This document shows, piece after piece, positions 3,095 through 64,000 of a DNA stretch of 64,000 nucleotides. Source of the stretch: Xestospongia muta. Taxonomy: Eukaryota > Porifera > Demospongiae > Haplosclerida > Petrosiidae. The position numbers were made by a program, and so were the translations under genes. The notes beneath the pieces are model-generated. The model was not told where the DNA came from, ran no database searches, and saw only the letters and a program-made list of their open reading frames with translations. Position 1 is the first letter of the stretch; the number at the start of each line of letters is the position of its first letter. Location: positions 6,345,842 to 6,409,841 of the forward strand of contig OY848924.1 in assembly GCA_963693285.1 (NCBI GenBank). The letters are read 5' to 3'.

Positions 3095-6000
3095 CTAGTT
3101 TTCCAAATGATCTGCTTCTTCTACATCTTCATGCACAGATATCCATCTTGTAAGTACACAAACTATATTTGTCATTGTTTTAACTTCACATTCGGTATTT
3201 TCTCCTTCTTGCACAGCACCTCCATCTGTGTCTTCAATCTCCAAGTTTTCTAAAGCCATTTCATTTGTCCTGTTCATTCTTTCTGCTGTATCATCTAATG
3301 ATTCAAGAGAACAACTGCAATTCTCACTATTGCAATTTCTACTAGAAATTGTTGTTTGGCGTGAGAACCCACCACGGCGTCTTTGTTCCCTAAATTTATC
3401 AGCAAAATCCATAATTTCATTGCGAAGGTGTTTGACACAAGTCATTGCATCATCGTTTGAAATTACCTCTGGCTCATCTAAAACTTTTATAAGAATTTGT
3501 TGGAGTGAACTTAAAAGTGTAGTATCTGATACCTCAGCATTCCAGTACAAATATCCAATGTTTAGAAGGATAGCAGATATAGGATTGGGACATTGGCCTG
3601 GTGCTGGTGGGAGAGGAGAAGGAACAATGGTGCAATTGGTGCTGGAGAGAGGATGACAAAATGTCATGTATGGATGAGGATATGGTTTTGATGGAACGTA
3701 GGCAGGTACAACCGAATTCCCTCTTACAATGTTAGGCGGCGAAATTGTTATAGTTGGGGGTTGTGGTTGTGGAATAGAATCGTCACTGCTATTGGAACTC
3801 TGAGAATCTAAAGGTAATAGTTTGTGTTTGCACTTGTTACACATCTTATTATTGTGTCGGAGATAGCAGACAACACAAGATAAAATCATCACGATGAGAA
3901 GTAAGAATAAAGACAGGGCACCAAGAACAGCAATAACAATAATTAAGTCTATCTCTCCCGTGTTTGCAGGCTCTAATATGAGGAGGAAAACAGTGGGTCG
4001 TAAAGAAGACAATATAGTTACATCTCTCATAATGGTACTTAGGATTATAGGTATACTTTAGTGTACCATTAAAAGTCTACACAATGACTAAAGAGTAATG
4101 AATAAAATCGTATAGCAACTCAGATTGCTTATAAATTTGGAATAGAAAACACTGATGAAACCACTCCCACAATAATTAGAAATGACACAAACAACATGGC
4201 TTCCTTATACTGGATTCTTATAACCACACATATATATGCTATTATAGATCAAATAATCAAACTTCGATCTCTACTATAGATTATAAGAATTAGATACTGG
4301 CATTTTATTGACTCTATACATTGTATATGATTATTACCTGCAGGAACTGATCCAGTAAAACGACTATCATTACGACAAGGGAGTGGTGACATTGTTGGTG
4401 TGCTTTCATAGTGTAATAAAAACCCTGTCTTAGATATTACAAATTGTCCTTTAGTGCCATCTTCATTTGATACTATCACTGATAACTGACATGTCTTGCT
4501 TGGAAGACTAGGTAATTTTATTTCACTTCTAATTTTTACTACATGTCCATCTTGACTGGAGATCTCTCTCTGTACTGAACCATTTAAACGGTTTGTGTTG
4601 AGATACCATTTAAAAGACAAAGGTTGAGTTCCTCGAGCATTAATACGAAATATATGATTATTGTTTGTGTCTTGAATATGTGTAATGTCCGTTAAGAATT
4701 GAGGAGATTCTAAATATGAAAGGAATTTAATAACTAATAATTAATAGATTGGTGGTTGGATGGATAGATGGATGGAAGAATGGATGAAGAGATGGTGGAC
4801 AAACAGATGAATGGATGAATAAATCAATGGGTAGATTGACAGATGAACAGTTTAATGGATAAATGAATATGTGAATGAATGGTCAAACACTTACCATGCT
4901 TTCTTTGTACAATAAGATTAACTTGAGGTCCAGTTAATGAGGAAGAGCCGCCAGACAACATTTTACTACGAGCAGTACATAAATAAACTCCACTACTTAA
5001 TACAGTCACATTGGAGAGAGTCACACTGTAATCTTCATTGACAGGCTCAGGAATTTCTATAATTTGACCAAAGATATTTCTTCTCCACAAAATGTTTAAT
5101 TGGTCAAAATAAGACACGTCCATAGGACATGGTAATTCAACATCATCTCCTTCTCTAGCATGTAATGTGATGGGAGTCCGACTAGTGTTGGGTAGAAGTT
5201 GAGGATATGCTGAAAAGAAAATTGAATAGTTTACTTAACATATACTAGTATACAAAAGTGTATGTACAATCTCAAAATTTCAATGGGGTCACTCTGGTTC
5301 AAGGCTAGACTGTGTACATATGTAATATGGAAAGTAATTGTCAGGTGTATTATTTTTAATATTTGTAGACAAGACTTTATTAAATAATAATAAATATCTT
5401 GGTCTGATAGAATTCTTGGCATTTACTATATAATGCATGTACATATATAACATAATGATCAACAAACAAAAATTTCTGTGTAGAATGCTATGTATAGTGA
5501 TTACAAGAGCATGATTTTGTGGGCAATTACAAGCATGAAAAGAATCTGATTATTGTGCATTACAGAGCATTAACAAGTAGTGTTTCCTTCTCGGCCAATC
5601 ACTTTATGTTCATTGTGGTTAGAGTTCATAGTAAAGATGATAATACTGTTATTATAGCCAGGCATGTTAATATATTATCATTATAGTATATAATAGTTTC
5701 ATTGACACAGTAAAAATGTGAATACTTCTAATTTAATACTGTTAATAAGTAGATTACTAACAAAATGTTGTCTTATTAGAGCTGTGTCCTTAAAGTTGAC
5801 ATCACTGTTATCATATCTAAATTATTGGTTTGCTGTACCAAATAAACTTGAGGACAAAATAAAATACTAGTATAGACAGTCATTTATTTGTAGGGACTAG
5901 TTTCTGCATTGTGTTTATAAGATATGCTTCTACAAACTACAATATAATGTAGCCTATATGCAGTGTTTATTTGTTCAGCAGGAAGTCAATTCAGTGTTTA

Positions 6001-7106
6001 GTATAAACTGAACCCACATCCTAAACCCTAAACATAAACTATACACACTAAAGTATTGGCTTCCTGCTAGATGAATAAACACTTTGTAGTTTATATTCAA
6101 ACCACACCTTTTCATTTAATAATTTTAATATCCTCTTATCTCTGTAAACTTTTCATAGTATTCTAGTTACTACATAATTACTATTTATTCTGAAATAAGG
6201 AATGATATCATAGTTCTAAGTACAGAGGTTATACTACAGAACTGCTTTAGACAGAGAATTCTGTCAACATATCAGAAAATGTCCCCTTTACTACTCTTTC
6301 TTGAAAGTTTAACATCATACAACGACCTTAGTTATCATTATGTATTGTAGTATACACAAGGAAATGAATACAATGTGGCTAATGTAAATAGAAGCTACAA
6401 AGAACTACACTATTGATGACAACTTAATTATAAACTAAAGCCATTAATGTTGTTGTGTTATATAATACACTAATTAGTACTATTACACTTCAATGTTTTA
6501 TATTTAATGCATTTAGGCTTTACTTACCTAATTAACATGGCCCTGTGTATAGCTGATTAAATTTTGTGTCGTTGTGACATTAAACCAATTACAGTACTAA
6601 AAGTGTTGTGTATTAACAATGCAAATCTTGTACATTATGTCCACTAAAAGAGTCTAGTTAGAGAGCGTAACAGTTCAAGTTGAATGATCAAATATTTACT
6701 CCTACACACACTGTGCAATACATTGTATAGCCTTATTATAAGGCTATACAATGGCCTTATACAGAATTTTTTATTTGTTAGAATTGACCTTTTAAGGATT
6801 TGGCATGTCTGAAATAAAACAAGACATACAGGGACTACAATAGGGAATACCCCTGGGTTAATCCACATGAACTTTGCTAAATATACACATACAACAAAAT
6901 AGAGTCATATTTCAAAATGCAACTACACATCAGCACAATAATTTTCCAATAGATTAGTCAATAAACAACATTCAAAACGTGTCGTGTTAACATCTAAACT
7001 TGACATGTATTCATTCCAAATAGTTAAACACAATAAATTAAACGATGTCACTTTTGAAACACCATTGAATAACATCATAGTGAAATCTTATTAATTGTGA
7101 ACAGTA

Positions 7107-7144
<38 letters not shown>

Positions 7145-7507
7145 TTATTGCCATTCATGTGCTTACAACTATTCTTACTTACCATATACTTCAACAGGCC
7201 TGGACAATATGTTACTGTGACCACATTGATAATAACCTTCACATGAAGGGATCATGCGAAGGTGGATGGAACCGTTTGAGAAAATTGAAGCATAATTCTT
7301 CAAACATTCATCTTTACTTAATGAAGCCCCATTTCTGTAGAAAGCTGCATTTGATACAAATGAACCACCTCCATTACTTTGACACCGAAGGAAGAACGTG
7401 TTCTCTCTTGGTCCTGTTCTGGTTGTAGTTGTCACAATGTAAGGTTGTGCTTGAGTAACAACTCCTGTATTACTGGAGAATAACAAGAGAATAATCCAGA
7501 ACATCAT
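3095..7507 (-). CDS. R1: three-domain Ig-like type I receptor, long tail (629 aa)
   Basis: Exons 7507-7183, 5209-4895, 4709-4338 and 3972-3095, all joined in phase 1, give 630 codons with the stop. Exon 1 starts MMFWIILLLFSS (signal peptide) and carries Ig1 with cysteines in FFLRC, DEC, PSC and YYQC plus the FYRNG motif (residues ~25-108). Exon 2 is a V-like domain with LPC, ILW and GVYLC (~109-213). Exon 3 is the third domain with FKWYLN but no Ig disulfide pattern (~214-337). Exon 4 has the transmembrane helix at ~348-375, then CVVC and, nine residues on, CNKC close to the membrane. A 240-residue tail follows, with a proline-rich segment and a helical block starting NPISAIL. It ends with a VLTRWIS motif. 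Its closest paralogue is R3. Intron 1 (1973 bp) is unusually long for the cluster. Surface location is inferred; the ligand is unknown. Confidence 0.87.
5962..6083. mobile_element. Foldback/MITE-like inverted repeat in R1 intron 1
   Basis: Arms of about 29 bp face each other: AGTGTTTATTTGTTCAGCAG at 5962 onward, and its imperfect reverse complement ending at 6083 (both contain CAGGAAG/CTTCCTG). The interior carries a short telomere-like CCTAAACCCTAAAC run. No convincing target duplication was found. Confidence 0.55.
6721..6753. repeat. Perfect 33-bp palindrome
   Basis: CATTGTATAGCCTTAT and its exact reverse complement are separated by a single T, inside R1 intron 1. The transcript would form a 16-bp hairpin stem. 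Confidence 0.9.
7112..7140. repeat. (TA)n microsatellite
   Basis: About 14 uninterrupted TA dinucleotides, just inside R1 intron 1 next to the exon 1 donor. Confidence 0.95.
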
Positions 7508-9675: not shown

Positions 9676-12669
9676 TTATTCCGGATCAATCTTTGTGAGT
9701 AGTTGTAGTTGACTAGACATATTGTTCAAAATTTTCATTAGGCCCTCTTCCTCTTCTTTTGTGAGCTCTCTTTCTTCTTCTTCTTGTAGTTCGTGATCAT
9801 CTACTTGAACTGTATGAAGTAATGGTTGATTGATGGTTTCTACAAATGAGATAGATTAAATGCTTGTAGACAAACACTAGTCATGATCAGTGGAGTAGGA
9901 AAGGGGGCAGGGGAGCAAGTGCCCCCCTCCCCAATAATTATAGGTGAAGGACACACATACTCTCAAATTGAATACTATAGTAATTTATTGAACATAACAA
10001 CAATTAACAAATCCAAGTAAAATCTAACTGCTCCTCCCTTCCTGTTTTTTACCTACTCCACTGTTAATCTGTTACTATTTATGTTTTATTTAATAATATT
10101 CTATTCTCTCATCCCTTTCTCCCTCAATCCATCCATCCCTTCCTTTCATACATGATCCATTTATCTATCCATAGCATACTATTAACCACACTCACCATCA
10201 CCAATTACTTCACTTTTGGCAGTTGAACTAGACTGATCCTCCAAACCTCTGCACTCGATATCAAAAGAAGGTTGGCTTGTATTAGGAACAAAATCTGATA
10301 GAAACTGTTTCACTGTTGCAGTAGGTACATTATACTTTATATGTTCAATTTGTTCCATTACTTGAATTGCCATATGGCGAAGTGCTGTGTGGCATTGTTG
10401 CAGTTGTGCTAAACGAGTGACACTCTGCAATATAATAGCAAGACCATTAAGGAGTTCCATGTCGGTGTGTTCAAAATCGGATATTGTTTGAGCAACTTCT
10501 ACTAATATGTTAGACATAGGATTAGCATACTTGGTCTCAGAAGGAGCAGACAAGTTATCAGATGTGGAACGTTTCATATAAATTGTCTCTGACTTAGTTG
10601 ATAATGTCACACTTGCTTCTCCATGAGATACCTGTCGTAGGACACGAATACATTGGATTTCTTTGCTGTTAGATATTGTGGAGAGTTGGGTTACATAAGT
10701 TGGCTGTTGTTCCCGTGGTATAGAGTCACAAACAAAAAGATCTTTGCTTCTGTTAACAGATTGCCTAAATTTGTAACAAGTCACTGTAAGAGTAATACAG
10801 AATACGATATTAAAAACCAGAGACATCACGAGTGCAATAATAACTGTTACTTGAGGTGACTCCAACATTGATGAAACATAGAATCTTATGATAGAATTTT
10901 CTAGAAAAACAAAATGATAAATTAAACTTGTATACAAAATGTCTTTTTTGTTACAAAAATAGCTAGATGTGTGCCATGTTTATATCACTAAAAATTAATC
11001 ATTTCAACCAATTTATAGTTTACATCAGCAGATTTCTATAGAATCTAGAATTCATAAGTCACAGGACTATTACAAACCTATACAGTGTGAACTTCACATG
11101 TGTTTTGGATTCCTACAAATTAGTTGGTTAAATTAATTTTTATAGTAAATTAATGTTTCGACCAATCAGAAAGGTGTGTTTATTATTCAGTTTATATAAT
11201 ATTATAATTATCTAAATAAGTATGAGTGTCTAGTTTAGTAGTATAGTTGAAATAATTATCAGTTTATATCTTACCAATGTAATAAGGATTAACAACAAAT
11301 ACTTGTTTCTTCTCATGACGGGTACCACTGTAATCATTATTCCACACCAGATACTCCACTTTCAATGTTCCATTCCATCTTCCATTTAACTTTAAATGTC
11401 TCTCATCTTTTTTAACAACTCTCTGAGTGGTACCATTAACAGCTGTGTTATTAATTGACCATTGATATTGTAAATTAGTGCCTGTAGCGATTATTCTTAG
11501 TTCACTGGAACCATCAGAATTGTTAACAATGATCATACCAGTAGTAATAATGGGAGATTCTAAGGAATAAAAGAGCTCAAATGTGTTTGTGCCCTCTTGT
11601 ACATGACATTGTTTTTAAATGAGCATACAGATTGTCTAGTCACTATTCATGAAATAATGTATGGAACGCTTGGTCTAAACATTTAAATAAAAACTTAAGT
11701 CTATACTATAGTTACTTGTATACCAAACACCCATTCACAAAGTATAGTAACTTATTTTTAAAAACATATTTGTTTCTCATTATTCCATATGCTGTTTCCA
11801 CTTGTGTATCTACTGTATCAAAACAAATACTGAAAGTAATTTTATCTCTAAGTGTTTGCAAAATCCTAGACTGTCAAAATCAATACATAGGTTTATTATA
11901 ATAATGTTTAAGTTATATATTTACTTACTGTAAGTTGTGTTGACAATTAAATTAAGATTTGGTCCATTTGAAGGACTAAACCCACCAGGAGGAAATGTAG
12001 GACGTAATTGACATCTATAAAAAGCCTGATCCATTAGCTGTAAATTGTTAATAGTATGATCGTGGATTTTACCCTCGTAGGTTGCAATCTCATCTATTAT
12101 ACTGCCTACTATTTTGAACCATTTGGTAACGTATGAATTGATTGGTGAGTGAGCAAAGTCACATGGTAAAGTAATGCTTTTGCCTACTACTCCAGTTATG
12201 TTACGATTTGATCCTACTTTAACTGGATAAGCTGAATGTACAGATCAATAGATAAAATGGATGCATACATTAGAGTGATGGATGAATGAATAATAGAGGG
12301 ATGGCAGAAGGTGGGGATTCTTACAAACTCACCATAAACTGTTATAGGTTTTGATAAAACAACACCATTGCCATTTCTAGCACCACACATATAATGTCCA
12401 TCACATTCAGGAGATATAGTGAATCGAAGTTTGTTTGTGGCAAAACTCACTGAAGAATTGAAACACTCATCATTTGTATTTAAGACACCATTACGATAAA
12501 ACACAGCATTAGGTACTGGATTTCCAAATTCATCCATACATTGTAGAGTCAATGTGTTATCATTGTATTCTCTACTGGTTAGACTTAGTGAGTACAGTGG
12601 TATTTGACAGTTAGTAGGAAATATTCTTAGATACAAAAGGAAAACTAAAGCAAAATCGCAATATTGCAT
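9676..12669 (-). CDS. R2: Ig-like type I receptor with acidic C-terminal exon (597 aa)
   Basis: Five phase-1 exons: 12669-12333, 12231-11929, 11559-11275, 10900-10196 and 9839-9676 (598 codons with stop). Exon 1 encodes a signal peptide and Ig1 (LTLQC, FYRNG, DEC, PEC, YMC). Exon 2 is an unsplit V-like Ig2 (LPC, TKWF, FYRC). Exon 3 is the third domain (YQWSIN, several N-glycosylation sites, no cysteine pair). Exon 4 carries the transmembrane helix (about residue 252 on), TIYMKRST, and a helical block beginning NPMSNIL with D-x-x-x-LLNGLAIILQ. Exon 5 is very acidic ([14 protein letters not shown]) and ends KIDPE. The exon 4 donor is a good GTGAGT, unlike the weaker ones in R4, R7 and R8. It belongs to the R2/R4/R7/R8 tail class. 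Confidence 0.88.
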
Positions 12670-12982: not shown

Positions 12983-15900
12983 TTAGGTTTTAACTTGATC
13001 TGGTTCATCAACATTATCATGTGCAGATATCCACCTTGTAAGCACACTAACTAAATGTTTCATTGTTTTTATGGTATCTTCTACTTCATGTACACCACCT
13101 CCATCTGTCTCATCTTCAATCTCCAAATCTTCTATAGTCACTTCACCAATCTCTTGACTAAGACAGTCAATTGGTCTATCTTTGTCATCTTCAGAAATAT
13201 TAACCTGACGTTTTAGTATAGATCTTGCACAAGTTTTTGTAACATGTTGTGGTTCTGTGAAGAGGTCTCTTTCTTTAGTTTTTCTGCGCATGTTCTGATT
13301 GCCATTTTCTTTACTTAGCTCATTCACACAATTAGTGCCACCTTTAGACTTGTTTTGTTGAAATTTTACTCTTTCATTGCTTGACTTTTTCATCCTTTCT
13401 GCTGTGTCATCTACTAATTCAATATGGTAACTGTTCTTATCAATAAAATCGTTACTAGAAATTGTTGTTTGGTGTGAGAACCAACCACGACATCTTTGTT
13501 CTCTCCATTTAACAGCAAAACCCATAATTTCATTGTGAAGGCGTTTGACACAAGTCATTGCATCATCGTTTGAAATTACCTCTGGCTCTTCTAAAACTCG
13601 TATAAGAATATGTTGGAGTGAACTTAAAAGTGTAGCTACTGTATCTGATGCCTCAGCATTCCAGTACATGTATCCAACAAGTAGAAAAATAACAGAGACA
13701 CGATTAGGAGATTGGCCTGGTGCTGAAGATAGAGGAAAAGGGATAATTGTACAATTGGTAGTAAAGAGAGGATGATTGAGTGTCATATGCGGATGAGGAT
13801 ATGGTATTGATGGGTTTTTGACAGGTACAACTGATCTTGTGTAAGGCAGTGGTGATGGATCTGGATTGGGTGATAAATCTGAAGTGGATGTGGGTTTTGG
13901 ATCCCGTGAATTAGAATCTGGGCTTAATACTGTATGTCCTTCTTTGCAATTTCGGCACATTTTTCCAATGCGTCTCTGATAGCAGACAACACAAGATAGA
14001 AATATCACAAGAAGAAATAAGGTGAAAGATACAATAGCAAGAACAGTAATAATAATGATTTGGTCTTTCTCTCCCAGCATTGTATGTTCTAAAATAATAA
14101 CAGTGACTTGTGATCCAAGTGTGTAATGAAATCTTTTATATTGGACAACCAATATTAATATTAATGATATTCTTTATATATTCAGGTTATATTCAGAATA
14201 TTTCTTTTATTTCATACTAATAATATTCAACCTTTAAACTTCTGTATTATCGATAGCTTCCATGCAATGTCTCAATGTGTGCATTATTAATTAAGATAGT
14301 TCACTAAATTCATTCCTACATTTTTTAAAAAAGGATGTTTAGAGGAATCTGAAGAACTAAAATGTACTGAAAATCTCAAAACGATTCAATGCTGATGCAT
14401 ATGACTAATACAATTAAAATTTGGCTTTTTTGTTCATCTATATCAACCATATTTGTGAGGTGACATTAAATACTCATCCCCATTTCAAAGTAAATAGTTA
14501 AACACAATAGCAATAAAAAGCAAATAGTACAGGCACATACAAAGCATTAATACATTATATCGAGTAACTGTATACATTGTATACGGTTATTACCTGTAGC
14601 AACTGATCCAATAGAAGGACTATCATTACGACAAGGGAGTAGTGACATTGTTGATGTGCTTTCATAGTGTAATAAAAACCCTGTCTTAGATATTACAAAT
14701 TGTCCTTTAGTGCCATCTTCATTTGATACTATCACTGATAACTGAGATGTCTTACTTGGAAGACTAGGTAATTTTATTTCACTTCTAATTTTTACTACAT
14801 GTCCATCTTGACTGGAGATCTCTCTCTGTACTGAACCATTTAAACGTTTTGTGTTGAGATACCATTTAAAAGACAAAGGTTGAGTTCCTTGAGCATTAAT
14901 ACGAAATATATGATTATTGTTTGTGTCTTGAATATGTGTAATGTCCGTTAAGAATTGAGGAGATTCTAATACATGAAAGGAATTTAAATTAATGTAATAT
15001 GAATAGATGGGTTGAACAGCAGCTGAATAAATGAATGAACTTATAGATGAATTGATGAATGGTAAAACACTTACCATGCTTTCTTTGTACAATAAGATTA
15101 ACTTGAGGTCCAGTTAATGAGGAAGACCCTTCAGTCAATATTTTACTACGAGCAGTACAAAAATAAACTCCACTACTTAATACAGTCACATTGGAGAGAG
15201 TCACACTGTAATCTTCATTGACAGGTTCAGAAATTCCTATAATTTGACCAAAGATATTTCTTCTCCACAAAATGTTTAATTGGTCAAAATAAGACACGTC
15301 CATAGGACATGGTAATTCAACATCATCTCCTTCTCTAGCATGTAATGTCATGGAAATGCGACTAGTGTTGGGTAGAAGTTGAGGATATGCTGAAAAGAGA
15401 ATAATGTGGTGTAGTTATTTATTATTTATTAATACAGTTATGTGTTTGGTGCAGTCTCAAAGGCAGCCATTAAATTAATTAATATCTTCTCTTCTTAAAG
15501 CTCTCAAAGATTCATTGCTATTATCATAGTTTAGTTAATTACTTAGTCAACACTAGGTTATAGTGGGCATATAAAGTTGACTGTTTCTTTCTTATCTACT
15601 GGTAAAAGTTTTTGCATAGAGTGCTATACATATACTTAATACAAACATCATAATTTGTGGTTAGTTAAAAACATAACAAGAATCTAATGAATGATTGTTA
15701 CACACTCTAGAATGAAGGAAACACGAAGGAAACACTAAAATCACATACATCTGGACTCCAGGTGTATGTGATTTTAGACAAGTCATAGTATGATATATCA
15801 CCAACACATGTACAAATAGTGAATATTATTTTATTTTAATGGTTTTTGCCAGTAAACCAATATACTGACTGTTTGCTTACATCAGTATAGACTAACAATG

Positions 15901-17132
15901 TAGTTTAAAAATGAATTAGTAGATAGTATAATACAGGCCAACAAAAGAATGGCTTATCTATTATTGTCAGCAATTTCAAAATTAAACTATTTGGATTTCT
16001 GTGATAGTCTTTGATATGCCTCTTCACTCAAACTAGGAATATTATGATATTTCTGTAATGAATATATTACTACTAGGCACTCTGTATAATACTATAGCAC
16101 TGACTACAGAGGTTAGACTGAGTTACGTCTGTGTCAACATGGACAATATGAAGTTAGGAACTCTATTATATCATCTTTCTTGATAAGAATCCTTCTACAA
16201 CATCAGTTAATCAACTACATTGTAGTAATGGTAATGTGTTATAGGTTAGGACAAAAGTAATTGCTCCATGCAGCAGTGTAGTGAGCATGAAAAGATAAGC
16301 GATTAGTTTTGTCCAATTGTCTGTTAAATATTGAAATTCCTTTCAAAAGGATTATTTAATATCTTTAGCTAGTTCAGTGACGTTGTATGGACCTTGATGG
16401 AGTCAGATTAATTAGTGTTGATTGACCACGACAAGACCCAATCTACCATAGGAGAAAGGGCTACCATATGTGTTTCCCCCTTGGCTAGAAATGCACTAAT
16501 CAGACATTATGTACAAAATAAGACGAAATATTGTCTTTTGATTTTGATTAAAAATACAACCACACCACCCAATAAATCTCCAAAAACTTATAGTAGGTAA
16601 ATAGTCAAAGATAAAGGCTTCATGATCTATACCTCTCTGACATGTATCAACTACAATGCAGTGTAATACAAGTACATTTAACATTCTATCTTTGGAAAAA
16701 CAGTAATTAAGATAGTATCAGCAAAAGGTGAAGAAAAATTACTGATATTATCAATAATTTTAATAAATATAATAAAAAGTTTTAAAGTGCTTACAACTTA
16801 CCATACACTTTAACAGGATTGGACAATAAGTTACTGTGACCACATTGATAATAACCTTCACACGAAGGGATCACATGAAGGTGCATGGAACCATTTAAGA
16901 AAATTGTAGCGTACTCTTTCAAACAATCATCTGAGCCTAATGGAGCCCCATTTCTGTAGAAACTTGCATTTGATACAAATAAACCTATTCCAGCTTTTTG
17001 ACATTGCAGGAAGAACGTGTTCTTTCTTGATCCTGTTCTGGTTGTACTTGTCACAATGTAGGGTTGTGCTTGAGTAACTATTTCTTCATAACTGCAGATA
17101 ATAGCCAGTAAAAGAATAATCCAGAACGTCAT
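12983..17132 (-). CDS. R3: Ig-like type I receptor, longest tail (707 aa)
   Basis: Exons 17132-16802, 15389-15075, 14965-14594 and 14088-12983, all phase 1, total 708 codons with stop. It is the close paralogue of R1: the same MTFWIILLL signal peptide, Ig1 with FYRNG, V-like Ig2 (LPC, ILW, YFC) and third domain (FKWYLN). The tail exon has a transmembrane helix, then CVVC and CRNC close to the membrane. A helical block beginning near GYMYWNAEASD follows, then an extra polar, basic insert absent from R1 (around 13200-13400). The C-terminus is VLTRWISAHD. As in R1, the first intron is long (1412 bp); the others are 109 and 505 bp. No ITIM-type tyrosine motif was seen. It lies 313 bp downstream of the R2 start codon. 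Confidence 0.88.
15735..15777. repeat. Hairpin-forming inverted repeat in R3 intron 1
   Basis: Arms CTAAAATCACATACATCT and AGGTGTATGTGATTTTAG (18 bp, one mismatch) are separated by a seven-base loop. No function is evident. Confidence 0.85.
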
Positions 17133-20500: not shown

Positions 20501-20677
20501 ACCATTACGATAAAACACAGCATTAGTTACTACACTCCCAGATTTATCCATACATTGTAGAGTCAATGTATTGCCATTTCTATCAGTTTTAGTCAGTGAG
20601 TATGGGAGTGTTTGACAGTCAGTAAGAGATACTCTTAGATACAAAAGAATAACTAAAGCAAAATTGTAATATTGCAT
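17575..20677 (-). CDS. R4: Ig-like type I receptor with acidic C-terminal exon (604 aa)
   Basis: Exons 20677-20344, 20262-19969, 19672-19388, 18605-17862 and 17732-17575, all phase 1, give 605 codons with stop. Ig1 has LTLQC, FYRNG, DDC, PKC and YMC. Ig2 has LPC, TKWF and FYRC. The third domain has YQWSINNTAV. The tail exon runs from an ectodomain stub through a transmembrane helix (about residue 316 on) to [19 protein letters not shown], the NPMSNILVEV helical block and YVADG. The last exon is read in the frame conserved with R2 and R8 ([19 protein letters not shown]). Its donor, GCAGATG|GTAGTG, is inferred by alignment to R2. If that intron is kept, the protein ends nine codons past YVADG's glycine region at a TAG. 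The 3' half was copied to make the tail of R8. Confidence 0.86.
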
Positions 20678-28088: not shown

Positions 28089-28130
<42 letters not shown>

Positions 28131-48397: not shown

Positions 48398-50194
48398 TTA
48401 AACTTTGACATCATCAAGTTGGACATACGGTGCTTCACTTTTGTCTTTCTTTGATTTGTATACAATGACAGTAGTTACAACAAGAAGGACTATGCAAATA
48501 ATAAGGAGTAAACAGATGCCAATTGAAAGTATAATAACAGATGTCATTTGAGATTGTCCTTCAGTTGGTGTAACTAATAACAAAATAAAATAAACACTAA
48601 TGTTTATTACACATAATATATTCTTTAATCAATTTACTGATTTCTAGTGTGTGCTGTCAGTTAAAGTTATTTAATACATAGACATTATATTTATATATGA
48701 TAAATGCTAATAGATAGATATATAATATTACAGTATTAACTTTAATCAACTAATTTATAGTTTACATCATTGGATTTATGTTAATTATAATTTGTTACTT
48801 TGTAATAGTATAACATACCTACCAACTAATCATTACAGTGAGTAATTCACATGTACTCTAGATTCCATAATAATCCATCCATGGATAGATACAAATTAGT
48901 TGTTATATGGAAATATATTTTAGCAGTTATTTTATTTATATGTATGTATGATATATATAATGTATATAATTATGTATGTATGTATTATGGTTTGTGTGCT
49001 AAATCTTACTTGTGTTATTTACTTGAAATAACCATCCTTCATAAGAATCACTCTGAGTATTATTATTAACATCTTTATTAGTGATGACTAGTTTCAATCT
49101 CTTGCTTTGTCCATTAAAGTTCAATTTCTGTGGTTGAAGACTCAAAACTCCAGTAGTTCCAGTTGTAGATAATCTCTCAACTCGTTCATCACTTGGTGTT
49201 AGTTGCTCATTGTTTAAAAACCAAGTAAAGCTTAAATCACTTCCAGTAGCTGTGGAGGTGAAGTCTATAACTCCATTAGTTCCAGTTTGAACTGAGACTT
49301 GTAAAATTGATGGAGAAGCTATAATTGAATGGGTAAGAAATAAATAATAAATAAATTACTGATCTTATGTTTATCCATCCATCCATCCATTCATCCATTT
49401 ATACTCACTGTATTCTTTAACATAAAGATGAGTCACTTGACCATCAATACTAAAAGGACCACTAACTAGAGTTTGTGATCTCACTCGACATGTGTAAATT
49501 ACTAAAACAAACAAACAATAAAATACTTCAATTATATTATATCATTCTCTTACATGAGTGTTCTGATACTTTCAAGTCTGTCAGTGTCAAAGAATAATCT
49601 GGATTATGAGGTTCAGTTCTCTCACCAATATCATCAGTTTGAGGATTTAGTGTTCTCCAGTTAACTGTGTACCCATTAAGAGCAGACACTCGTACATGAC
49701 AAGGGAGAGTAATGGATGTACCAGCAACAACTCTTAATGATTGTATAGTAGCATTGTAGTCAGAAGTATGGTCTGGATTAGTCTGTAAAAGATAAATAAT
49801 TATCTTGGAGTATATACTACTGACAGGAAAGGGAAGAGGAAGAAAGTATACTCACCATAAATTTATAGAGATTTTGATAAAGTCACATTGTTACCATAGC
49901 TACTACCACATGTAAACAATCCTTCATATCAGGAGATATAGTGAAGTTAAGATTGTTTGTGTCAACACTCACTAAAGAATTGAAACATTCATCACTTGTA
50001 TTTAAGACACCATTACGATAAAACACAGCATTAGTTACTGCATTTCCAAATTCATCCATATATTGTAGAGTGATTTGGTTAACATCTCTATTAGTAATGG
50101 TCAGTGAGTATGGAGGTGTTTGACACTCAATGGAGGACACCTTTAGCAACAACAATAATGCAAACACAATCAAAGAAGAGTAACGACACTGCAT
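48398..50194 (-). pseudogene. R10: broken Ig-like receptor, frameshifted Ig1 and truncated tail
   Basis: Exons correspond to 50194-49856, 49782-49554, 49501-49409, 49318-49010 and 48573-48398. Compared with R8, R9, R11 and R12, exon 1 lacks one base at the PEC cysteine (CCTGATATGAAGG instead of CCTGAATGTGAAGG). This shifts the frame and gives a TGA before the exon end. Exon 2 has one extra base right after its acceptor (ACTAATCC for CTTATCC), so total frame is restored downstream. Exons 2-5 are otherwise clean: LPC, YTC, FTWFLN and a transmembrane helix following TPTEGQSQM. The tail stops after VQLDDVKV, lacking the helical and tyrosine motifs of R9, and the following DNA is unrelated. It is probably a pseudogene. 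A sequencing error in exon 1 would leave a tail-less receptor instead. Confidence 0.8.
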
Positions 50195-52030
50195 GACAAA
50201 TCTCAGGAGTTCTTAACTTCAATATACTAGCTCCTGAATATAGAATTAACTATTAGATCTCAAACAATTATAGGAAGAGTTCAGTACGAGCTCAGGAATC
50301 ACAGGTCTATAGACAGCAACCAGCCTCTCTCTTTGTCTCTTTGTAGTATTAAGTGATTTCATAGGATGAGATTACAAGTCAGGAAATATAAGATTTATTT
50401 ATGAGAGGATGTTAACAAACAATGCTTCTATTATTTTAAATTATATAAATGCAGCTGTAATCAATAAACAAAAAACTTCCTTATATGATAATTATTATTC
50501 TGTGGGAATGTATTATTAATTTATCTGACAATGGGAGACCATATGTTATAATCTCATAAAAGAATGCATAAGAGTTACCTTTAATTTCGCACTATTTGTG
50601 TGTGTGACAAATTTTAATAAAGACAAGAACACAATAGTATTGTTACTATATCAACTGGTTTGTAGAAAGTGTTACTATAGATACATTAACATGCATTGTG
50701 ATATAATGGGTCTTTCCCAAACTTTCCTTCCCATACATCAAGACAGACTTCATGTACATATATGTACATGTACCCTACATACCACTCATGAATATTATTA
50801 AGTGTTATTTCAACCATGCAATATGCAATAGCAGGATTATCTCGTTATTTTAAAGTTATGCCCATACATGGACATACACTGTATCGTCACATGATGACAT
50901 AGTAATTTATAGGCTTCTGTTTTACTAAAAATAGTAACGTATTCAATTTTTGTGATGTTCACAGAATTACCTAAATAATGATGATTTCATGGAAGGATTT
51001 TTATAGGGTATTGTATCAGTTCTTTGGTATGATTCAGTTTATCCATCTATCTATCCATCCATTCATCCATTATGAAACAGCAGCTTATTGTCAATATTTG
51101 TTAATACATTCCATAAATCAAACATTAAGATTTCATTTGTTAAACCAAATGATACAGGTCATGTACAAGACCCTTAAATTATCAAGAAACATGTACAGGA
51201 ACCAAAGTTAATTTTTGATATTTTTGTCAGTGTCTCAGAATCATTGAAGATACTGACATGTTATAATAACATATATCAAATGGAAGGTGCTTAAATTGAA
51301 TTTTACTGAGTTTTCCAACAATTAGATTAACACTAAAGCTTTTACTTTTACTTATGTGTTGTGTGTCTTTTCATAGTCACTCCAAAATGTCGTTGTATAT
51401 ATAATTATAGAATCACTGAAAAACATATAAGTTGAAATTATATCAATATATCAATAGTATATTATACTATAATAACTATATTTAACTGTTGGAATGTGTG
51501 ATTGGCAATAATAAAGTTAGTAAGGAATACATTGAGATTATCCTACCCTCAGCACACCTGTGTAGGATATATTATCAGAGAGAAGAGAACTGACCATACC
51601 CACACTGGTAATGTCATTTCACTCAAGGACATTAATCCATTAACTTGACAGACACATCGACTCTCCCCCCTACATTGACTACAGTGACCACTACAGTGAC
51701 CACTACAGTGACCACTACAGTGACCACTACAGTGACCACTACAGTACATCAGAGAGAGGAAAATATTAACTCATTAATATAATACATTATGAAGAAATTA
51801 ACTTTGTTTCTGTAGTATGTCAAAGTTTAACATATCAGCCTTATCAGGAATTCTCTAACCAACACAACTGCTAAAACCACAGACCATTACTATGGTTATC
51901 TTATGAGCATACTTTAGAATTCCAATCTCATCTTATAAAATAATAATAGTACAAAGAGAGAGAGAGACAGAGCAGGATTGTCTGCTGTCTAAGGACCTTT
52001 CATTCTAGAACTCTTTCAATAATTGTGTGA
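50195..52030. other. Intergenic between divergent R10 and R11
   Basis: Contains the R10 upstream region (50195-50380), then sequence at 50600-51630 that is copied in direct orientation at 54170-55335 downstream of R11. No exon was recognised. A 12-bp tandem repeat at 51676-51745 is listed separately. Confidence 0.5.
51676..51745. repeat. Six tandem copies of a 12-bp unit CACTACAGTGAC
   Basis: Uninterrupted dodecamer array between R10 and R11. The unit contains the near-palindrome CACTACAGTG. The reading frame through it is a by-product of the 12-bp period. The copy of this intergenic block at 55000-55335 lacks the array. Confidence 0.93.
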
Positions 52031-52085: not shown

Positions 52086-54024
52086 ATGCAGTGTCATTAT
52101 TCTTTTTTGATTGTGTTTGCATTATTGTTGTTGCTAAAGGTGTCCTCCATTGAGTGTCAAACACCTCCATACTCACTGACCATAACTAATAGAGATGTTA
52201 ACCAACTCACTCTACAATGTATCGATGAATTTGGAAATCCAGTATCTAATGCTGTGTTTTATCGTAATGGTGTCTTAAATACAAGTGATGAATGCTTTGA
52301 TACTTCAGTGAGTGTTGCCACAAACAAACTTAACTTCACTATATCTCCTGAATGTGAAGGACACTATATGTGTGGTGCTAGAAATGGCAATGGTGTTGTT
52401 TTATCAAAACCTATATCAATTTATGGTGAGCATGTCTCTCTTCCTCTTCCCTTTCCTGTCAGTAGTATATACTCCAAGATAATTATTTATCTTTTACAGC
52501 TTATCCAGAATGTACTTTTGACTACAATGCTACTCAGCAATCATTAAGAGTTGTTGTTGGTACATCCATTACTCTCCCTTGTCATGTACGAGTGTCTGCT
52601 CTTGATGGGTACACAGTAAAATGGAAAATAAAAGATCCAGTTAAAGATACATACGGTGAACGATCTGAGTCCCATAATTCAGACTATTCTTTGACATTGA
52701 CAAATTTAAATGACTCAAAGGATTCTTGTAAGTATAACTACTTTTGTACAAAGTATTATATCATCTCTTTTATAGTAATTTATACTTGTCAAGTGCAGTC
52801 TCAAATCCTTTATAATGGTCCCTATAAAATTGATGGTCAAAAGACAAGACTTTATGTTAGAGAATACAGTGAGTATAAATGGATGAATGGATGGATAGAT
52901 GGATGGATAAATGGTCTGATAGAGGATCTAATTAAGACTGAGATAGATGGATGGATGAGTGGTCTAATAGAGGATCTAATTAAGACTGAGATAGATGGAT
53001 GGATGGGTGGTCTGATAGAGGATCTAATTAAGACAGGGACATTCATTTATAGTTCCTCCGTCAATTTTACAAGTTTCTGCTCAAACTGGAACTGATGGAC
53101 TAATAGAACTCAACTCCACAGCTACTGGAAGTGATTTAAATTTCACTTGGTTTTTGAACAATCAACAGCTGCATTTAAGTGATGAACAAGTAGATTACAT
53201 GTATTTGCATCAATCTCCTCAAGGAAAGACTGGATTTCTTGGTCTCCAATCACAGAATGTGAACTTTAACACTCAAAGCAAGAGATTAAAAGTTGTTGTA
53301 ACTAACATAGATATTCGTGGAAACTATCAGACTGCTTCTTATGAAGGATGGCTATTAGTAAACAATGCTGATTCTAATCAAATGTGCAAAGGTAGTATAT
53401 ATAATGTATAATATTTGTTACTATGGTAACATTGTCAACTGTGAATGTAATGTTTATTGACAAAACATGTCATGATGAAAGGAGTTTCTCCAGTCATGAT
53501 AACATCTAATGTCTATTGATATTATTACAATGTATTACTATCTAAGTGGTTACTAATGTGGTTAGTGTGTGTTTTATTGTGTTCAATGTGACTGGGTAGT
53601 TTTTTGATATGTTTGTTAATTAGAATGTGTATTTTTTTCTTCTTCAGATTTCACATTATTCAAACATGAAGTTACTGTCTTCGCGATAATTGTGGCTATA
53701 CTTTTCGTACTATGCTGTGTTTTAACTGTTCTTCTTGTAATAATGTGTTGTAAAGCAAATAAAGACAAAAGAAACATAGCAATTGTAGATTCAACAATGC
53801 AGCGACAACCTGATGACAGTCAGATAACGTTTATTAAAGATTTACAACAATCTATGCATGAGTACCATGATCATCGTATAATTATATGTTCATGTTGTAA
53901 TAGAGGGCAAGTAGATGAACCAGATGGTGCTAACGCAGAAACACCTGATCCTGCATTTGACAAGTTCTTGAAAGACAACTTTCCAAAAACATACAAGAGC
54001 ACATCACGCAAGGGAAAGAACTAA
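52086..54024 (+). CDS. R11: Ig-like type I receptor, short tail (458 aa)
   Basis: Exons 52086-52425, 52500-52727, 52776-52868, 53053-53391 and 53648-54024, all phase 1, total 459 codons with stop. Exon 1 matches R9/R12 ([22 protein letters not shown]). Exons 2-5 match R6, including the VKWKIKD stretch in Ig2 and the in-frame, stop-free 48-nt intron before YTC. They also share the YMYLHQSPQ insertion in the third domain and a transmembrane helix ([18 protein letters not shown]). The C-terminus is FLKDNFPKTYKSTSRKGKN, where the end differs from R6 after PKTY. Intron 3 contains three copies of a ~48-bp unit (GATAGAGGATCTAATTAAGA). It is the first plus-strand receptor. Confidence 0.88.
52881..53040. 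repeat. 48-bp minisatellite in R11 intron 3
   Basis: Three copies of a unit containing TCTGATAGAGGATCTAATTA and AGATGGATGGATG. R6 has two copies of the same unit in the equivalent intron on the opposite strand (31140-31215). Confidence 0.9.
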
Positions 54025-55920: not shown

Positions 55921-58556
55921 ATGCAGTGTCATTATTCTTCTTTGATTGTGTTTGCTTTATTGTTGTTGCTAAAGGTGTCCTCCATTGAGTGTCAAACACC
56001 TCCATACTCACTGACCATAACTAATAGAGATGTTAACCAACTCACTCTACAATGTATGGATGGATCTGGAGATCCAGTATCTAATGCTGTGTTTTATCGT
56101 AATGGTGTGTTAAATACAAGTGATGAGTGTTTCAATTCTTCAGTTAGTATTGACACAAACAAACTTCGGTTTACTATATCTCCTGAATGTGAAGGATATT
56201 ATATATGTGGTGCTAGAAACGGCAATGATGTTGTTTTATCAAAACCTATAACAATTTATGGTGAGTACACTTTCTTCCTCTTCCCTTTCCTGTCAGTAGT
56301 ATATACTCCAAGATAATTATTTATCTTTTTACAGCTTATCCAGAACATACTTCTGACTACAATGCTACTCGTCAATCATTAAGTGTTGCTGCTGGTACAT
56401 CCATTACTCTCCCTTGTCATGTACGAGTATCTGCTCTTGATGGGTACACAGTTAACTGGAGAACACTAAATCCTCTGACTGGTAATATTGGTGAGAGAAC
56501 TGAACCTCATAATTCAGATTATTCTTTGACATTGACAGACTTGAAAGTATCAGAACACTCATGTAAGAAAATCATATAATATAACTGAAGTATTTTATTG
56601 GTTGTTTGTTTTAGTAATTTACACATGTCGAGTGAGATCACAAACTCTAGTTAGTGGTCCTTTTAGTATTGATGGTCAAGTGACTCGTCTTTATGTTATA
56701 GAATATAGTGAGTATAAATGGATGAATGGATGGATGGATGGATGGATGGATGGATGGACAGATAAGATCAGTAATTTATTTATTATTTATTTCTAATCCA
56801 TTCAATTATAGCTTCTCCGTCAATCTTACAAGTCTCAGCTCAAACTGGAACTAATGGAGTTATAGACTTCACCTCCACAGCTATTGGAAGTGATTTAAAC
56901 TTTACTTGGTTTTTAAACAATGAACAACTAAGACCAAGTGATGAACGAGTTGAGAGATTATCTGAAACTACTGGAGCTTTGAGTCTTCAACCACAGAAAT
57001 TGAACTTTAATGGACAAAGCAAGAGATTAAATCTAGTTATCACTAATAAAGATGTTAATAATAATACTCAGAGTGATTCTCACGAAGGATGGTTATTTCA
57101 AGTAAATAATACAAGTAAGGTTTGGCACACAAACCATACTATACATACATACATAATTATATACATTATATATATCATACATACATATAAATAAAATAAC
57201 TGCTAAAATATATTTCCATATAACAACTAATTTGTATCTATCCATGGATGAATTATTGTGGAATCTAGAGTACATGTGAATTACTCACTGTAATGATTAG
57301 TTGGTAGGTATGTAATACTATTACAAAGTAACAAATTGTAATTAACATAAATCCAATGATGTAAGCTATAAATTAGTTGATTAAAGTTAATACTGTAATA
57401 TTATATATCTATCTATTAGCATTTATCATATATAAATATACTGTCTATGTATTAAATAGCTTTAACTGACAGCACACACTAGAAATTAGTCAATTTATAT
57501 TACATTGTACTATCTACTACATAACAATTGATCATATTTCAAAGCTTCTAACATTATATATATACACACTCTCATATAAATATGTACATTGTACATATCA
57601 CATACATACACATATATATATATATATATATATTGTACTATCTACTACAAGTACTTCAACAACTGATCATATTTCAAATCTTCTAATATAATATTCTATA
57701 GTTACTCCACGTGTTATATTATACCAAATTTAACAAAAGATATTGTAATGTTAACGTCTTTAAAACTATTTTTATAATACCTATTGTTATAAAGAATATA
57801 TTATGTTTAATAAAATTTAGTATTTATTTTATTTTGTTATTAGTTACATCATCTTTCATTACACCAACTGAAGGACAATCTCAAATGACAGCTGTTATTA
57901 TACTTTCAATTGTCGTCTGTTTACTCCTTATTATCTGCTTAATCCTTGTTGTCATAGCTACCATTACTGTATATAAATATAAAAAAGACAAAAGAGAAGT
58001 ACCAAGCATTCAAGTCGATGATGCCAATGAAACTACTGACAATAGAGTCTCTGTACACATAGAAGACAACCCATGTAGAGTGGTTATTAAGAAGTCAGCT
58101 CTAAGTAACTTAGATAAATTTAATATGGCTATTATGGATGTACTTATTGAAATTGGTAAACTGGAAGAAACTAACAAGAATATCCAACAACGCATTCAAA
58201 GACTTATCCATCAGCTCTCAGCTCCTGTAAGACCCTCACAACCCACTCAAGATGCTGACCTTGATGATGCAATTCCAGCTGTTTGTGATTCTCGTAGTCG
58301 TTTAGTAAATATTCATGATCTTCCTGAATCACCAAGACCAGGTGCAAAGACAAAGAATATTGTTTATTATGATGTATCACAACCTACAGCAAAAGTGGAG
58401 ACCACACAATATCTTGAATCTCAAGCTAATCCAATGTATGATACTATAGGAGATGAATCCAATGAACTGTTGACAACACTATTGAAGTCTGAACTTCCGG
58501 GAACTCATGTTAGATTTATGGAACTTTTAGAATTAAAAACTAACAGTAGTTTGTAA
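55921..58556 (+). CDS. R12: Ig-like type I receptor with ITIM-like tail (558 aa)
   Basis: Exons 55921-56260, 56335-56562, 56615-56707, 56812-57114 and 57844-58556, all phase 1, total 559 codons with stop. Ig1 has LTLQC, FYRNG, DEC, PEC and YIC. Ig2 (LPC, VNW) is split before YTC by a 52-nt intron. The third domain has FTWFLN and GWLFQV and is two codons shorter than in R9. The tail exon has a stub (SSFITPTEGQSQM) and a transmembrane helix (AVIILSIVVCLLLIICLILVVI). It continues with LDKFNMAIMDVLIEIG, the ITIM-like NIVYYDV, NPMYDTI and the C-terminal LLKSELPGTHVRFMELLEL. It is an inverted duplicate of R9. The start follows a conserved upstream element shared with R8 and R11. Confidence 0.89.
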
Positions 58557-60736: not shown

Positions 60737-63700
60737 TTAGCTGCTATTTAAGTAGCGTGTAAGTTCCATAAACTTATCATAAGTACCAGGAAGTTTAGAT
60801 CGTAAAAGACCTGTCAGCTCATCAGGCTCATTTGTAGAAGTTCCATAAGATGGATTACTTTGACATTCAAGTTCAGATACAAATTCCTGTTTGGCCTCGG
60901 GAAGCCGTGGTATATAACGTGCAATAGGTTCTTCATTATCATTCCTTGTTTGTGGGTTAGTAGGCTCGTCATAAACAGGTTCATATGTGTGACCACGATT
61001 ATCAGGTACAACAACTTCTGCACTTTCAGGTCCTCCATCTGTTCTAACTTTAGGGTTTTTTTGATGGTGTGAAGTTTGGGAGGAAGACGATGTAAAATTG
61101 AGTAAAAGTTTTTTAATATGTTGCTTCACAGTATCACTGGTATCAGGATGTCGATAAGTTTCCGTAAGTACATTTATAATAGCCATATTAAAGTCATCCA
61201 CACTTTTCTGCTCTGATTCTGTAAGCTTGATACCTTGTTTTAGGACAATAGATTCACAGACTTCATTAGGTTCGGTTTTGCGTAGAGCATGTGACAAGAC
61301 AAGAGCAATAAGAAAACCACAGCAACAGAAAACAACAAAAACAATAACAACTATAAGACATATAAACACAACACCTGACATTTCAGGCAAAAGAGGTGTG
61401 CCAGAAGGTGGAGAGTTAACCAATGGAGGTGTAGCAGTAATTGAAACAACTAAGAAAAGAATAAAAAAATAAAATAATATATTATATATACATATATATG
61501 CGTGTGTGTGTGTGACTATAAATACAAAAATGGTACCTAATGCGTAAACAAATCATGAATGAATGCTTGCGTGTGAAGCTTTGCAACATCGCCATATTGA
61601 ACAGGAAGTCATTAAAGTTCAATATTTGACAAGCTCAATGATTGACCTTCATGTTTACCAAATTACATGGACTTCCTTCTCAAGATAGATATATAGCAAC
61701 CATTTATACACAAGCGTTTGTTTAAAATTTGTTTACGCATTAAGTACTATTTTTCGCATTTATAGTCACACACACATACACACACACTGACTTATTTATG
61801 TTTGTTTTATGTTGGTTCTCTTGTGTGTCAATGTACAATTACTTGCTAAGTGTGGCTCTTTTATTAAACAAAAAAGAATACTATTAAAATTATCATTATA
61901 GTTGTTAAATGTTAGTGCAAATTTTAGGGCAATTTTTCACCTTACACATCACAAGAAATCAACTTGTCTATTTCCAAGACAAATTTTTGGATTATTGAAA
62001 TTGAAACATGTCATGATGTAAATGGAGTTTGTGATTCTACTCACTCCAGACACTTGAGAATAATGTAGACCTAGTTATAGTTTCCCATAAGAGACTACTT
62101 ATCAACGTTATTCTAAATTTAAGAATATCCTCTATATCGAGATACTTGCATCGTCTTACATTACATCTTAGTAACACTTCTATAACTACCCTTTACCAGC
62201 AGTCTCCTCTATATGTTTTAGCTAGCATTGTATAATTGGAACCACATGAAGAAGGAAAGGAGGGTCTAATTGCAGTACTATGTTTTCTGCTAAGTCCATT
62301 TGACCATATAAGGAACGATAGTCATTTACATGAAATACTCAACAACCCACAAAGTCTTTAGACATCAGGGTTATAAAGTATACTTAAACTTAGCTTAAAT
62401 ATAACTTGTTTATCTTCTTCCCTGTTTCATTGTTTGGAGACAGACCTACACATAATCTCTGCTTTCTGGCTACAACTGTTATTTTGTGATTACGTGTATA
62501 ATAAAATAATTATTAGACCACTACCACCTTCCATATATGGTAAAAGTAGTAAAGGACTTAGCTGAGTACATGCTACATGTAACTAAATTAAAGTTTGATG
62601 CTATCTCTCTTCCTGCATGTACTCTTGGTATAATATACAACATGAAATAACTACAACACTTGTTACTCAAAAGGTATGGGAAAGAAACAGGTACAACACC
62701 AACTCACCAAGTAGAGTATAATGTATAAAAGTCAGTTGGACAGTCTGAGATCACCATGTTTTAATACTGATTCCTATACCATAAACCCTAAACATTAAAC
62801 TTCAAAGTACAAGGTCTGAAGTTTGGATTGTCCCACTTGGAGGACATGCCCGGAGGTTGGATTGTCCCACTGGACCATGCTTGGAGGTTTAACTGTCCCA
62901 CTGATCTTCCGTAATAATAACTAACTATATGTAAACAATTACGCTCATTGACAAATGGTATGTAGGTTTTATGGAAGTAGTCTATTAAAAAATATTTCGA
63001 TGTACAAATATTTACTATTTGATTAAAGGAACATTACTATTTATCATATTTTGTTTATACGACAACTTACAGGTTGTAATAGTCTTATTCACTTGAAATA
63101 ACCATCCTTCATAAGAATCACTCTGATTATTATTATTAACATCTTTATTAGCGATGACCAGATTTAATCTCTTGCTTTGTCCATTAAAGTTCAATTTCTG
63201 TGGTCGAAGACTCAAAACTCCAGTAGTTCCAGATAATCTCTCAACTCGTTTATCACTTGGTCTTAGTTGTTCATTGTTTAAAAACCAAGTAAAGTTTAAA
63301 TCACTTCCAGTAGCTGTGGAGGTGAAGTCTATTACTCCATCAGTTCCAGTTTGAGCTGAGACTTGTAAAATTGATGGAGAAGCTATAATTGAATGGATAA
63401 CAAATAAATAATAAATATATTACTGATCTTATCTGTCCATCCATCCATTCATTTATACTCACTGTATTCTATAACATGAAGTTGTGTCTTTTGACCATCA
63501 ATACTAGGATTACTAACTAGTGTTTGTGATCTCACTCGACATGTGTAAATTACTAAAACAAACAAACAATAAAATACTTCAATTATATTATATCATTCTC
63601 TTACATGAGTGTTCTGATACTTTCAAGTCTGTCAGTGTCAAAGAATAATCTGAATTATGAGGTTCAGTTCTCTCACCAATATCACCAGTTAGAGGATTTA

Positions 63701-64000
63701 GTGTTCTCCAGTTAACTGTGTACCGATCAAGAGCAGATACTCGTACATGACAAGGGAGAGTAATGGATGTACCAGAAGCAACTCTTAATGATTGCTGAGT
63801 AGCAGTGTAGTTAGAAGTACGTTCTGGATAAGCTGTAAAAGTTGAGAAAAAGTTTTCATAATCGTTTTGAATTAGGAGACTAAAAATTAAATGTAGTTAA
63901 CATTAGTAAAACTCACCGTCGGTTCTATAACTTCTTGAAAGCTCAGTATTGTTTCCACACTGGATGTACCCCTCACATTCTGACACTAACACGAAAGCTA
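60737..64000 (-). CDS. R13: Ig-like type I receptor with tyrosine-motif tail (5' end beyond window)
   Basis: Visible exons: 64000-63917 (3' part of exon 1), 63832-63605, 63552-63463, 63382-63071 and 61449-60737, all phase 1. Ig1 ends SECEGYIQCGNNTELSRS, the familiar C-x-G-Y-x-C pattern. Ig2 (LPC, VNW, YTC) is split by a 52-nt intron. The third domain has FTWFLN and EGWLFQV. The tail exon has a proline-rich stub (TPPLVNSPPSGTPLLPEM) and a transmembrane helix (VVFICLIVVIVFVVFCCCGF). It continues with a helical block VDDFNMAIINVLTETY, tyrosine motifs HTYEPVYDEP and NPSYGTS, and the C-terminal LLRSKLPGTYDKFMEL. The strict ITIM of R9/R12 is absent; YEPV and YDEP could still be SH2 sites. Intron 4 is 1621 bp and holds a foldback element. 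Confidence 0.86.
61505..61793. mobile_element. Foldback/MITE-like element in R13 intron 4
   Basis: Imperfect inverted arms of about 75-80 bp, with shared words GACTATAAAT, GTACCTAATGCGTAAACAAA and CGCTTG. They close on an interior with CATTAAAGTTCAATATTTGA. The outer ends run into (TG)n on one side and (CA)n on the other, so target duplications cannot be defined. No coding capacity. Confidence 0.75.
62815..62905. repeat. Degenerate tandem repeat GGAGGTTGGATTGTCCCACT
   Basis: Three imperfect units of about 30-35 bp (GAAGTTTGGATTGTCCCACT, GGAGGTTGGATTGTCCCACT, GGAGGTTTAACTGTCCCACT) within R13 intron 4. Confidence 0.8.

Follow-up and report, generated by a model that had tools for sequence, protein, structure and literature searches.

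A mosaic array of three-domain immunoglobulin-like receptor genes in the sponge Xestospongia muta, a candidate recognition family

The 64,000-nucleotide stretch of the Xestospongia muta genome analysed here (the window, C8:6345842-6409841, where C8 denotes its contig) carries an array of 13 paralogous copies of a gene for a type I membrane receptor with three immunoglobulin (Ig)-like domains, which on balance is probably a germline-encoded recognition family that has diversified through duplication, conversion and the swapping of modules. The architecture of these genes, their mosaicism, their concentration at one locus and their open reading frames are established by sequence; from this anatomy we infer a recognition function. 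Because outer domains and tails have been mixed between copies, the receptors are good candidates for the sensing of self/non-self or of microbes, with allorecognition a possible role.

Searches with domain queries (tblastn) located, at window positions 3098-63989, 13 sets of exons encoding Ig1, Ig2, a third domain (Ig3, or D3) and a transmembrane segment with its tail, always in this order, in agreement with the first-pass annotation of this DNA, which had proposed paralogous type I receptors of a single architecture. Chance is excluded as the source of the family, given that a single Ig1 query recovers all 13 copies at E <= 7.8e-7 and a type C Ig3 query its eight copies at E <= 3.5e-31. The array spans 3095-64238, and the annotated extent of 61 kb is thus sound, save that its end at 64000 has to be moved, as the first exon of R13 reaches 238 bases beyond the window. 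Copies R1-R10 and R13 lie on the minus strand, and R11 and R12 on the plus strand (Table 1). Spliced models, built by placing GT-AG sites at module borders, are complete and open in 12 of the 13 copies (455-707 amino acids, with predicted splicing), and each follows the plan signal peptide plus Ig1, Ig2, Ig3, transmembrane helix plus tail; the remaining copy, R10, is a pseudogene in which Ig1 is frameshifted and a stop closely follows the membrane helix, so that the thirteen receptors originally counted comprise twelve intact genes and one relic. Ig2 occupies two exons in type C genes and is unsplit in types A and B. All introns in the 12 models are in phase 1, a common phase that is partly our own choice in that splice sites were sought at phase 1, although a fitting site was present at every border; since every modelled intron has this phase, each module could be exchanged without a break of frame. 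As to the earlier view that no other recognised gene lies between the receptors, neither a tRNA nor an Rfam match at gathering score was found between them, and the remaining listed open reading frames of at least 100 amino acids overlap or adjoin receptor exons or fall within simple repeats, (ATCC)n among them, the intergenic gaps not having been searched against protein libraries. A search for homologous proteins returned no match at E<=10 from a collection that may not cover this animal, and no description of this three-Ig sponge receptor family was found in the literature searched, much of it available only in part.

The variation between copies reflects module exchange and not divergence alone, because the identities of the modules are discordant from copy to copy. 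R8 is the clearest instance, with identities to R12 of 82% in Ig1, 92% in Ig2, 94% in Ig3 and 14% in the tail, to R6 of 90%, 68%, 65% and 20%, and to R4 of 62%, 29%, 18% and 73%, respectively. In likelihood tests, for which the groups were picked after these identities had been seen, the pairing of R8 with R12 was rejected for Ig1 and the tail and was not rejected for Ig2 or Ig3, that of R8 with R6 was rejected for Ig2, Ig3 and the tail, and that of R8 with R4 was rejected for Ig2 and Ig3; the best trees hold R8 with R6 for Ig1, and with R4 for the tail, neither join being starred. These pairwise tests were added once the outcome of an earlier test constraining R8 with R2, R4 and R7 was known. 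That constraint escaped rejection for Ig2 (p 0.32) and was only just rejected for Ig3 (p 0.035), since the branch carrying these three copies is long and the tree unrooted. A constraint joining R13 with the type C Ig1 domains was likewise not rejected (p 0.065).

Comparison of the DNA, introns included, places R8 with R12 until 34 bp past Ig3 and with R4 from a point 262 bp short of the tail exon onwards. At the DNA level the parts of R8 are 86-88% identical to their nearest relatives and differ from them throughout, so that R8 did not arise by a recent joining of two copies that exist today. R13 tracks R12 only between a point shortly ahead of Ig2 and one about 110 bp past Ig3, save for a weak match (57%) in the tail; it carries an R12-type Ig2-Ig3 flanked by a different Ig1 and a different tail. 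R4 and R7 are 95.7% alike from Ig1 through Ig3 and 78.7% alike in the tail, and synonymous divergence is similarly uneven, being 0.05 in Ig3 of the R2/R4 pair as against 0.58 in Ig2 and 0.57 in the tail, and 0.012 (one synonymous change) in Ig3 of R1/R3 as against 0.42 in the tail. Recombination or conversion within introns would be the simplest cause of both the mosaics and the uneven synonymous divergence.

All three ectodomain modules are assigned to the Ig fold, on evidence that differs between them. Ig2, annotated as V-like, is Ig by both Pfam and PDB profile searches. The four-cysteine Ig1 matches Pfam Ig_2 or Ig_3, in every case below the curated cut-offs, with no Pfam match at E<=0.1 for Ig1 of R1 and R3. 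The third beta-sandwich domain of the annotation is predicted by AlphaFold to be an I-set-like Ig fold (predicted local distance difference test score, pLDDT, 91.6), an assignment made by predicted fold only, with a single Foldseek match at E<=0.001; a non-Ig identity for this domain was set aside on the strength of the model. Cysteines are kept in Ig1 and Ig2, including the F-strand cysteine of Ig2, and the canonical B-F pair, which the Ig fold does not need, is absent from Ig3 in 13 of 13 copies, such that the receptors possess the Ig-fold domains of the immunoglobulin superfamily (IgSF) without a B-F disulfide in each. The nearest solved Ig domains belong mostly to adhesion molecules and titin.

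The several tail types of the annotation resolve by sequence into six: A (R1, R3), B (R2, R4, R7, R8), C (R5), D (R6, R11), E (R9, R12) and F (R13), with C, D, E and F having in common a short C-terminal motif around L..P.T. A motif scan found the immunoreceptor tyrosine-based activation motif (ITAM) in none of the 12 tails and a match resembling the inhibitory motif (ITIM) in two (R9, R12), shuffled tails yielding one in 3-38% of cases; signalling by ITAM or ITIM was accordingly ruled out, there being no excess over shuffled tails. Kinase, TIR and death-fold tails were discarded as candidates for want of a Pfam match at the curated cut-off in the 12 tails, none of which gave a kinase match or, at E<=0.05, a TIR match. 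PDB profiles of tails A and B returned weak matches, the best being syntaxin coiled coils (E 0.16).

Ratios of non-synonymous to synonymous substitution (dN/dS), pooled over pairs hand-picked as recent ones for each module, were 0.69 for Ig1, 0.84 for Ig2, 0.46 for Ig3 (p 0.006) and 1.05 for the tails; single values over 18 pairs range from 0.10 to 2.9, with few changes in each. Positive selection was rejected, as the pooled ratio exceeds 1 in the tails only, and not significantly. The tails contain no stop where about 6.8 would be expected (three independent pairs), and on this count do not look decayed, albeit in models that were chosen as open; tails that change fast yet apparently stay open were unexpected. 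The annotated pattern of ectodomain variation over one architecture holds to the extent that amino-acid change, pooled over the chosen pairs, is faster in Ig1 and Ig2 than in Ig3, and has to be amended in that modules were exchanged as well.

Taken as a recognition family, the array suggests the following mechanism. The receptors would be expressed at the cell surface, where the outer Ig1 and Ig2 probably contact a ligand on another cell or on a microbe, the ligand itself being perhaps allotypic, perhaps microbial, perhaps an invariant self molecule; the cysteine-poor, I-set-like Ig3 would form a membrane-proximal spacer that is more conserved, and one of the six tail types would relay the signal through motifs or helical segments other than ITAM or ITIM. 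The array would diversify by tandem and inverted duplication, gene loss and gene conversion, with recombination in the phase-1 introns providing an ectodomain with a different tail or Ig1. Several observations weigh against this interpretation. The pooled dN/dS of Ig1 and Ig2 falls short of 1, though not significantly, and hence gives no support for diversifying selection on the outer domains; a ratio near 1 in the tails could also mean weak constraint; no Pfam family matches any of the 12 tails at the curated cut-off; the single tail modelled (pLDDT 46) was too poor for a structure search; and adhesion molecules with fixed ligands could present a very similar picture.

Among narrower accounts of function, we entertain tentatively that these are innate receptors sensing microbes, with symbionts or pathogens driving gene turnover and tail swaps as in Siglec-11/16 and the CEACAMs. 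The near-identical Ig2-Ig3 found on different tails (R8 versus R12, R9 and R13) is a structural mark of paired receptors, the ectodomains of which are kept alike by gene conversion according to the sources available in part, and Ig-domain genes are among the responders to microbial patterns in two sponges, as reported in the portion available of one study (PMC6208332); the 12 tails, however, display no opposed activating and inhibitory motifs. Somewhat doubtful is the proposal that the genes encode ordinary adhesion molecules of fixed specificity, tandemly duplicated by chance, with the mosaicism being neutral conversion between neighbours. The affinities of the solved Ig domains and the outer-domain dN/dS are in keeping with it, as is the available part of a review that links sponge IgSF proteins chiefly to adhesion and cell recognition (PMC11999971), whereas six tail types, the unlike Ig1 and tail of R13 and the loss of a copy would, in our judgement, be unusual for a fixed set.

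It is unlikely that the locus is an allorecognition complex the alleles of which decide fusion or rejection between conspecifics, through homophilic or paired Ig1-Ig2 binding as for Alr1/Alr2 in Hydractinia. Sponges reject allografts, discriminating foreign tissue with great precision, and to our knowledge the receptors behind this rejection are not known; a single-locus multi-Ig family with a pseudogene and mosaicism would suit the task, and the Hydractinia complex is likewise described, in the part of the source available, as linked IgSF genes with pseudogenes (PMC11067881). Against this stand the lack of ITAM and of ITIM above chance, the wealth of other IgSF genes and clusters that the genome contains, and the fact that the classical sponge candidate for allorecognition already exists in the polymorphic aggregation factor. 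In the 2017 Amphimedon graft transcriptome, to judge from the available main text, adhesion and aggregation-factor genes were not significantly enriched, and no receptor of the present kind is named, the words 'immunoglobulin' and 'receptor' each occurring 0 times (PMC5450542). A more specific version, for which we see little likelihood, is a combinatorial sponge histocompatibility complex, evolved apart from Alr, fuhc and MHC/KIR, in which phase-1 intron recombination would re-pair allotype-bearing Ig1-Ig2 with ITAM/ITIM-free tails. Finally, whilst the data come from a single assembly and the region contains tandem repeats, mosaics arising from collapsed or chimeric haplotypes are highly improbable, given the divergence of R8 from its nearest relatives throughout and the lack of a second copy of the locus on other contigs.

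The array may therefore be described, as far as its sequence goes, as resembling Alr or paired receptors in build and turnover; it is assigned to neither because the tested signalling motifs fail, and the likeness to recognition families drawn in the first-pass annotation accordingly extends to build and not to the ITAM of Alr. Hydractinia Alr proteins have three Ig domains and a tail, which in some cases bears an ITAM or ITIM. The sponge genes, compared by build, lack ITAM and have ITIM no more often than chance, and they keep cysteines in Ig1 and Ig2 with no B-F pair in Ig3. In the available part of the account of Alr, these are single-pass membrane proteins with polymorphic ectodomains, encoded by linked IgSF genes and pseudogenes in one region (PMC11067881), comparable with the 13 copies, one a pseudogene, in 61 kb here. 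With the vertebrate paired receptors Siglec-11/16 and CEACAM1/3, as partial sources describe them, the array shares similar ectodomains on different tails, R8 versus R12 being the case in point, and conversion between neighbours; KIR and LILR are further receptors of this class. It departs from them in its six tail types with no recognisable opposition of ITIM and ITAM in the 12 tails, a charged membrane residue for an adaptor not having been scored. Other Ig-like sponge surface proteins are documented, in sources available in part, in the receptor tyrosine kinase of Geodia cydonium and in sponge adhesion molecules (PMC11999971, PMC12018476), the former set apart by its kinase from the array, none of whose 12 tails matched a kinase domain; sponge Ig-TIR receptors similarly join an Ig ectodomain to an intracellular part (PMC6208332, available in part), whereas the 12 tails of the array gave no TIR match at E<=0.05. 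A compact single-locus family with interchangeable tails is a tangible marker whose genotypes could be set against graft outcomes and responses to microbes, and is a clear case, in an early-branching animal lineage, of module swapping as in vertebrate paired receptors.

The genome (158 Mb, 28 contigs) was searched with seven protein queries, namely Ig1 of types A and C, Ig2 of type B, Ig3 of type C and tails A, B and E; Ig2 of types A and C, Ig3 of types A and B and tails C, D and F lay outside this set, tail D with part of its Ig3 being run as DNA. These module queries place the family at this locus, plus four exon fragments on three other contigs (Ig1 on C6 and on C2, Ig2 adjacent to the latter, and part of a tail B on C13), and found no second copy of the locus. 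An Ig1 profile recovers two divergent neighbours to the right, C8:6423184-6423762 (minus strand, E 2.6e-7), with an Ig2-like exon having an AYP start and a membrane exon downstream, and C8:6442946-6443347 (plus strand, E 4.5e-5), from which we infer a wider cluster of about 100 kb. Scoring 150 of 449 candidates from the whole genome against Pfam V-set gave at least 86 matches, of which, among the matches listed, none lies in the window and 35 lie in C5:990963-1313564 (about 0.32 Mb). The genome is thus rich in IgSF genes, which disposes of the array as its only IgSF locus; the likeness of the receptor build to that of recognition families is upheld, without the array being singled out as 'the' recognition system.

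Table 1. Receptor genes of the array, in window positions, with exons listed in order of transcription
Feature	Position	Strand	Description	Exons
R1	3095..7507	-	629 aa, ectodomain type A, tail A	7507-7183, 5209-4895, 4709-4338, 3972-3095
R2	10182..12669	-	547 aa, type B Ig2/Ig3, tail B	12669-12333, 12231-11929, 11559-11275, 10900-10182
R3	12983..17132	-	707 aa, type A, tail A	17132-16802, 15389-15075, 14965-14594, 14088-12983
R4	17842..20677	-	558 aa, type B, tail B	20677-20344, 20262-19969, 19672-19388, 18605-17842
R5	26443..28504	-	484 aa, type C (Ig2 on two exons), tail C	28504-28162, 28067-27843, 27797-27705, 27600-27232, 26867-26443
R6	30153..32042	-	455 aa, type C, short tail D	32042-31700, 31626-31399, 31350-31258, 31117-30779, 30517-30153
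R7	33943..36055	-	549 aa, type B, tail B	36055-35716, 35634-35341, 35045-34761, 34673-33943
R8	40905..44002	-	577 aa, mosaic: Ig1 nearest R6, Ig2 nearest R12, Ig3 nearest R9/R12/R13, tail nearest R4	44002-43663, 43588-43361, 43308-43216, 43091-42783, 41668-40905
R8 last-intron stretch with tail-swap junction	41931..42748	-	DNA comparison including introns	
R9	45261..47840	-	553 aa, type C, tail E	47840-47501, 47433-47206, 47153-47061, 46980-46672, 45952-45261
R10	48410..50212	-	pseudogene of R9/R12 kind: Ig1 frameshift, tail truncated by early stop	
R11	52086..54024	+	458 aa, type C, tail D, opposite in orientation to its relative R6	52086-52425, 52500-52727, 52776-52868, 53053-53391, 53648-54024
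R12	55921..58556	+	558 aa, type C, tail E, opposite in orientation to R9	55921-56260, 56335-56562, 56615-56707, 56812-57114, 57844-58556
R13	60737..64000 in window, first exon to 64238	-	554 aa, type C Ig2-Ig3, own Ig1, tail F	64238-63917, 63832-63605, 63552-63463, 63382-63071, 61449-60737

Between the receptor genes lie two (ATCC)n arrays with similar flanks, at window 23043-24699 (1.7 kb) and 37200-37999 (0.8 kb), and three minisatellites, whose units measure 58, about 104 and 168 bp, occur beside or between them at 3-821, 7836-8783 and 59272-59981. To the right of the window the divergent Ig receptor genes occupy C8:6416634-6423762 and the sequence from C8:6442946 onwards. To its left, at C8:6325528-6342982, roughly 8 kb is duplicated in tandem; the duplication includes what by eye is a helicase-like piece, a gene of about 348 amino acids with the look of a coiled coil, and an unnamed gene of about 520 amino acids.

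The tail-B-like piece on C13 (1525698-1526141) is open and 73% identical to R4 over 123 codons, with dN/dS of 1.7 to R4 and 2.0 to R8 on few changes. The segment before it, with which it is in frame, is a repeat of another about 600 bp upstream. The piece belongs to, or adjoins, a gene that has a Death-domain-like exon (E 3.7e-4; 21.0 bits, below the cut-off of 22.6), and, judged by its sequence, is perhaps a tail captured by an intracellular signalling gene. A 10 kb sample of the C5 V-set stretch appeared, by eye, to encode long multi-Ig proteins with EGF-like and sushi-like exons. A further Ig receptor at C6:1194367-1196833, close to V-set genes of similar kind, combines two Ig-like exons and a membrane helix with a tail in which tyrosine motifs abound (IVYEEL and two NSAYG repeats). 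Silicatein, a protein linked to sponges, is cathepsin L-like with serine replacing the catalytic cysteine. With a silicatein query, one exon on C11 reads CGCSYAF, its serine at the catalytic position indicating, on this single exon, a demosponge, as against CGSCWAF in two other hits, and a second C11 copy, which has a twin, reads CCSCYAF with the cysteine kept.

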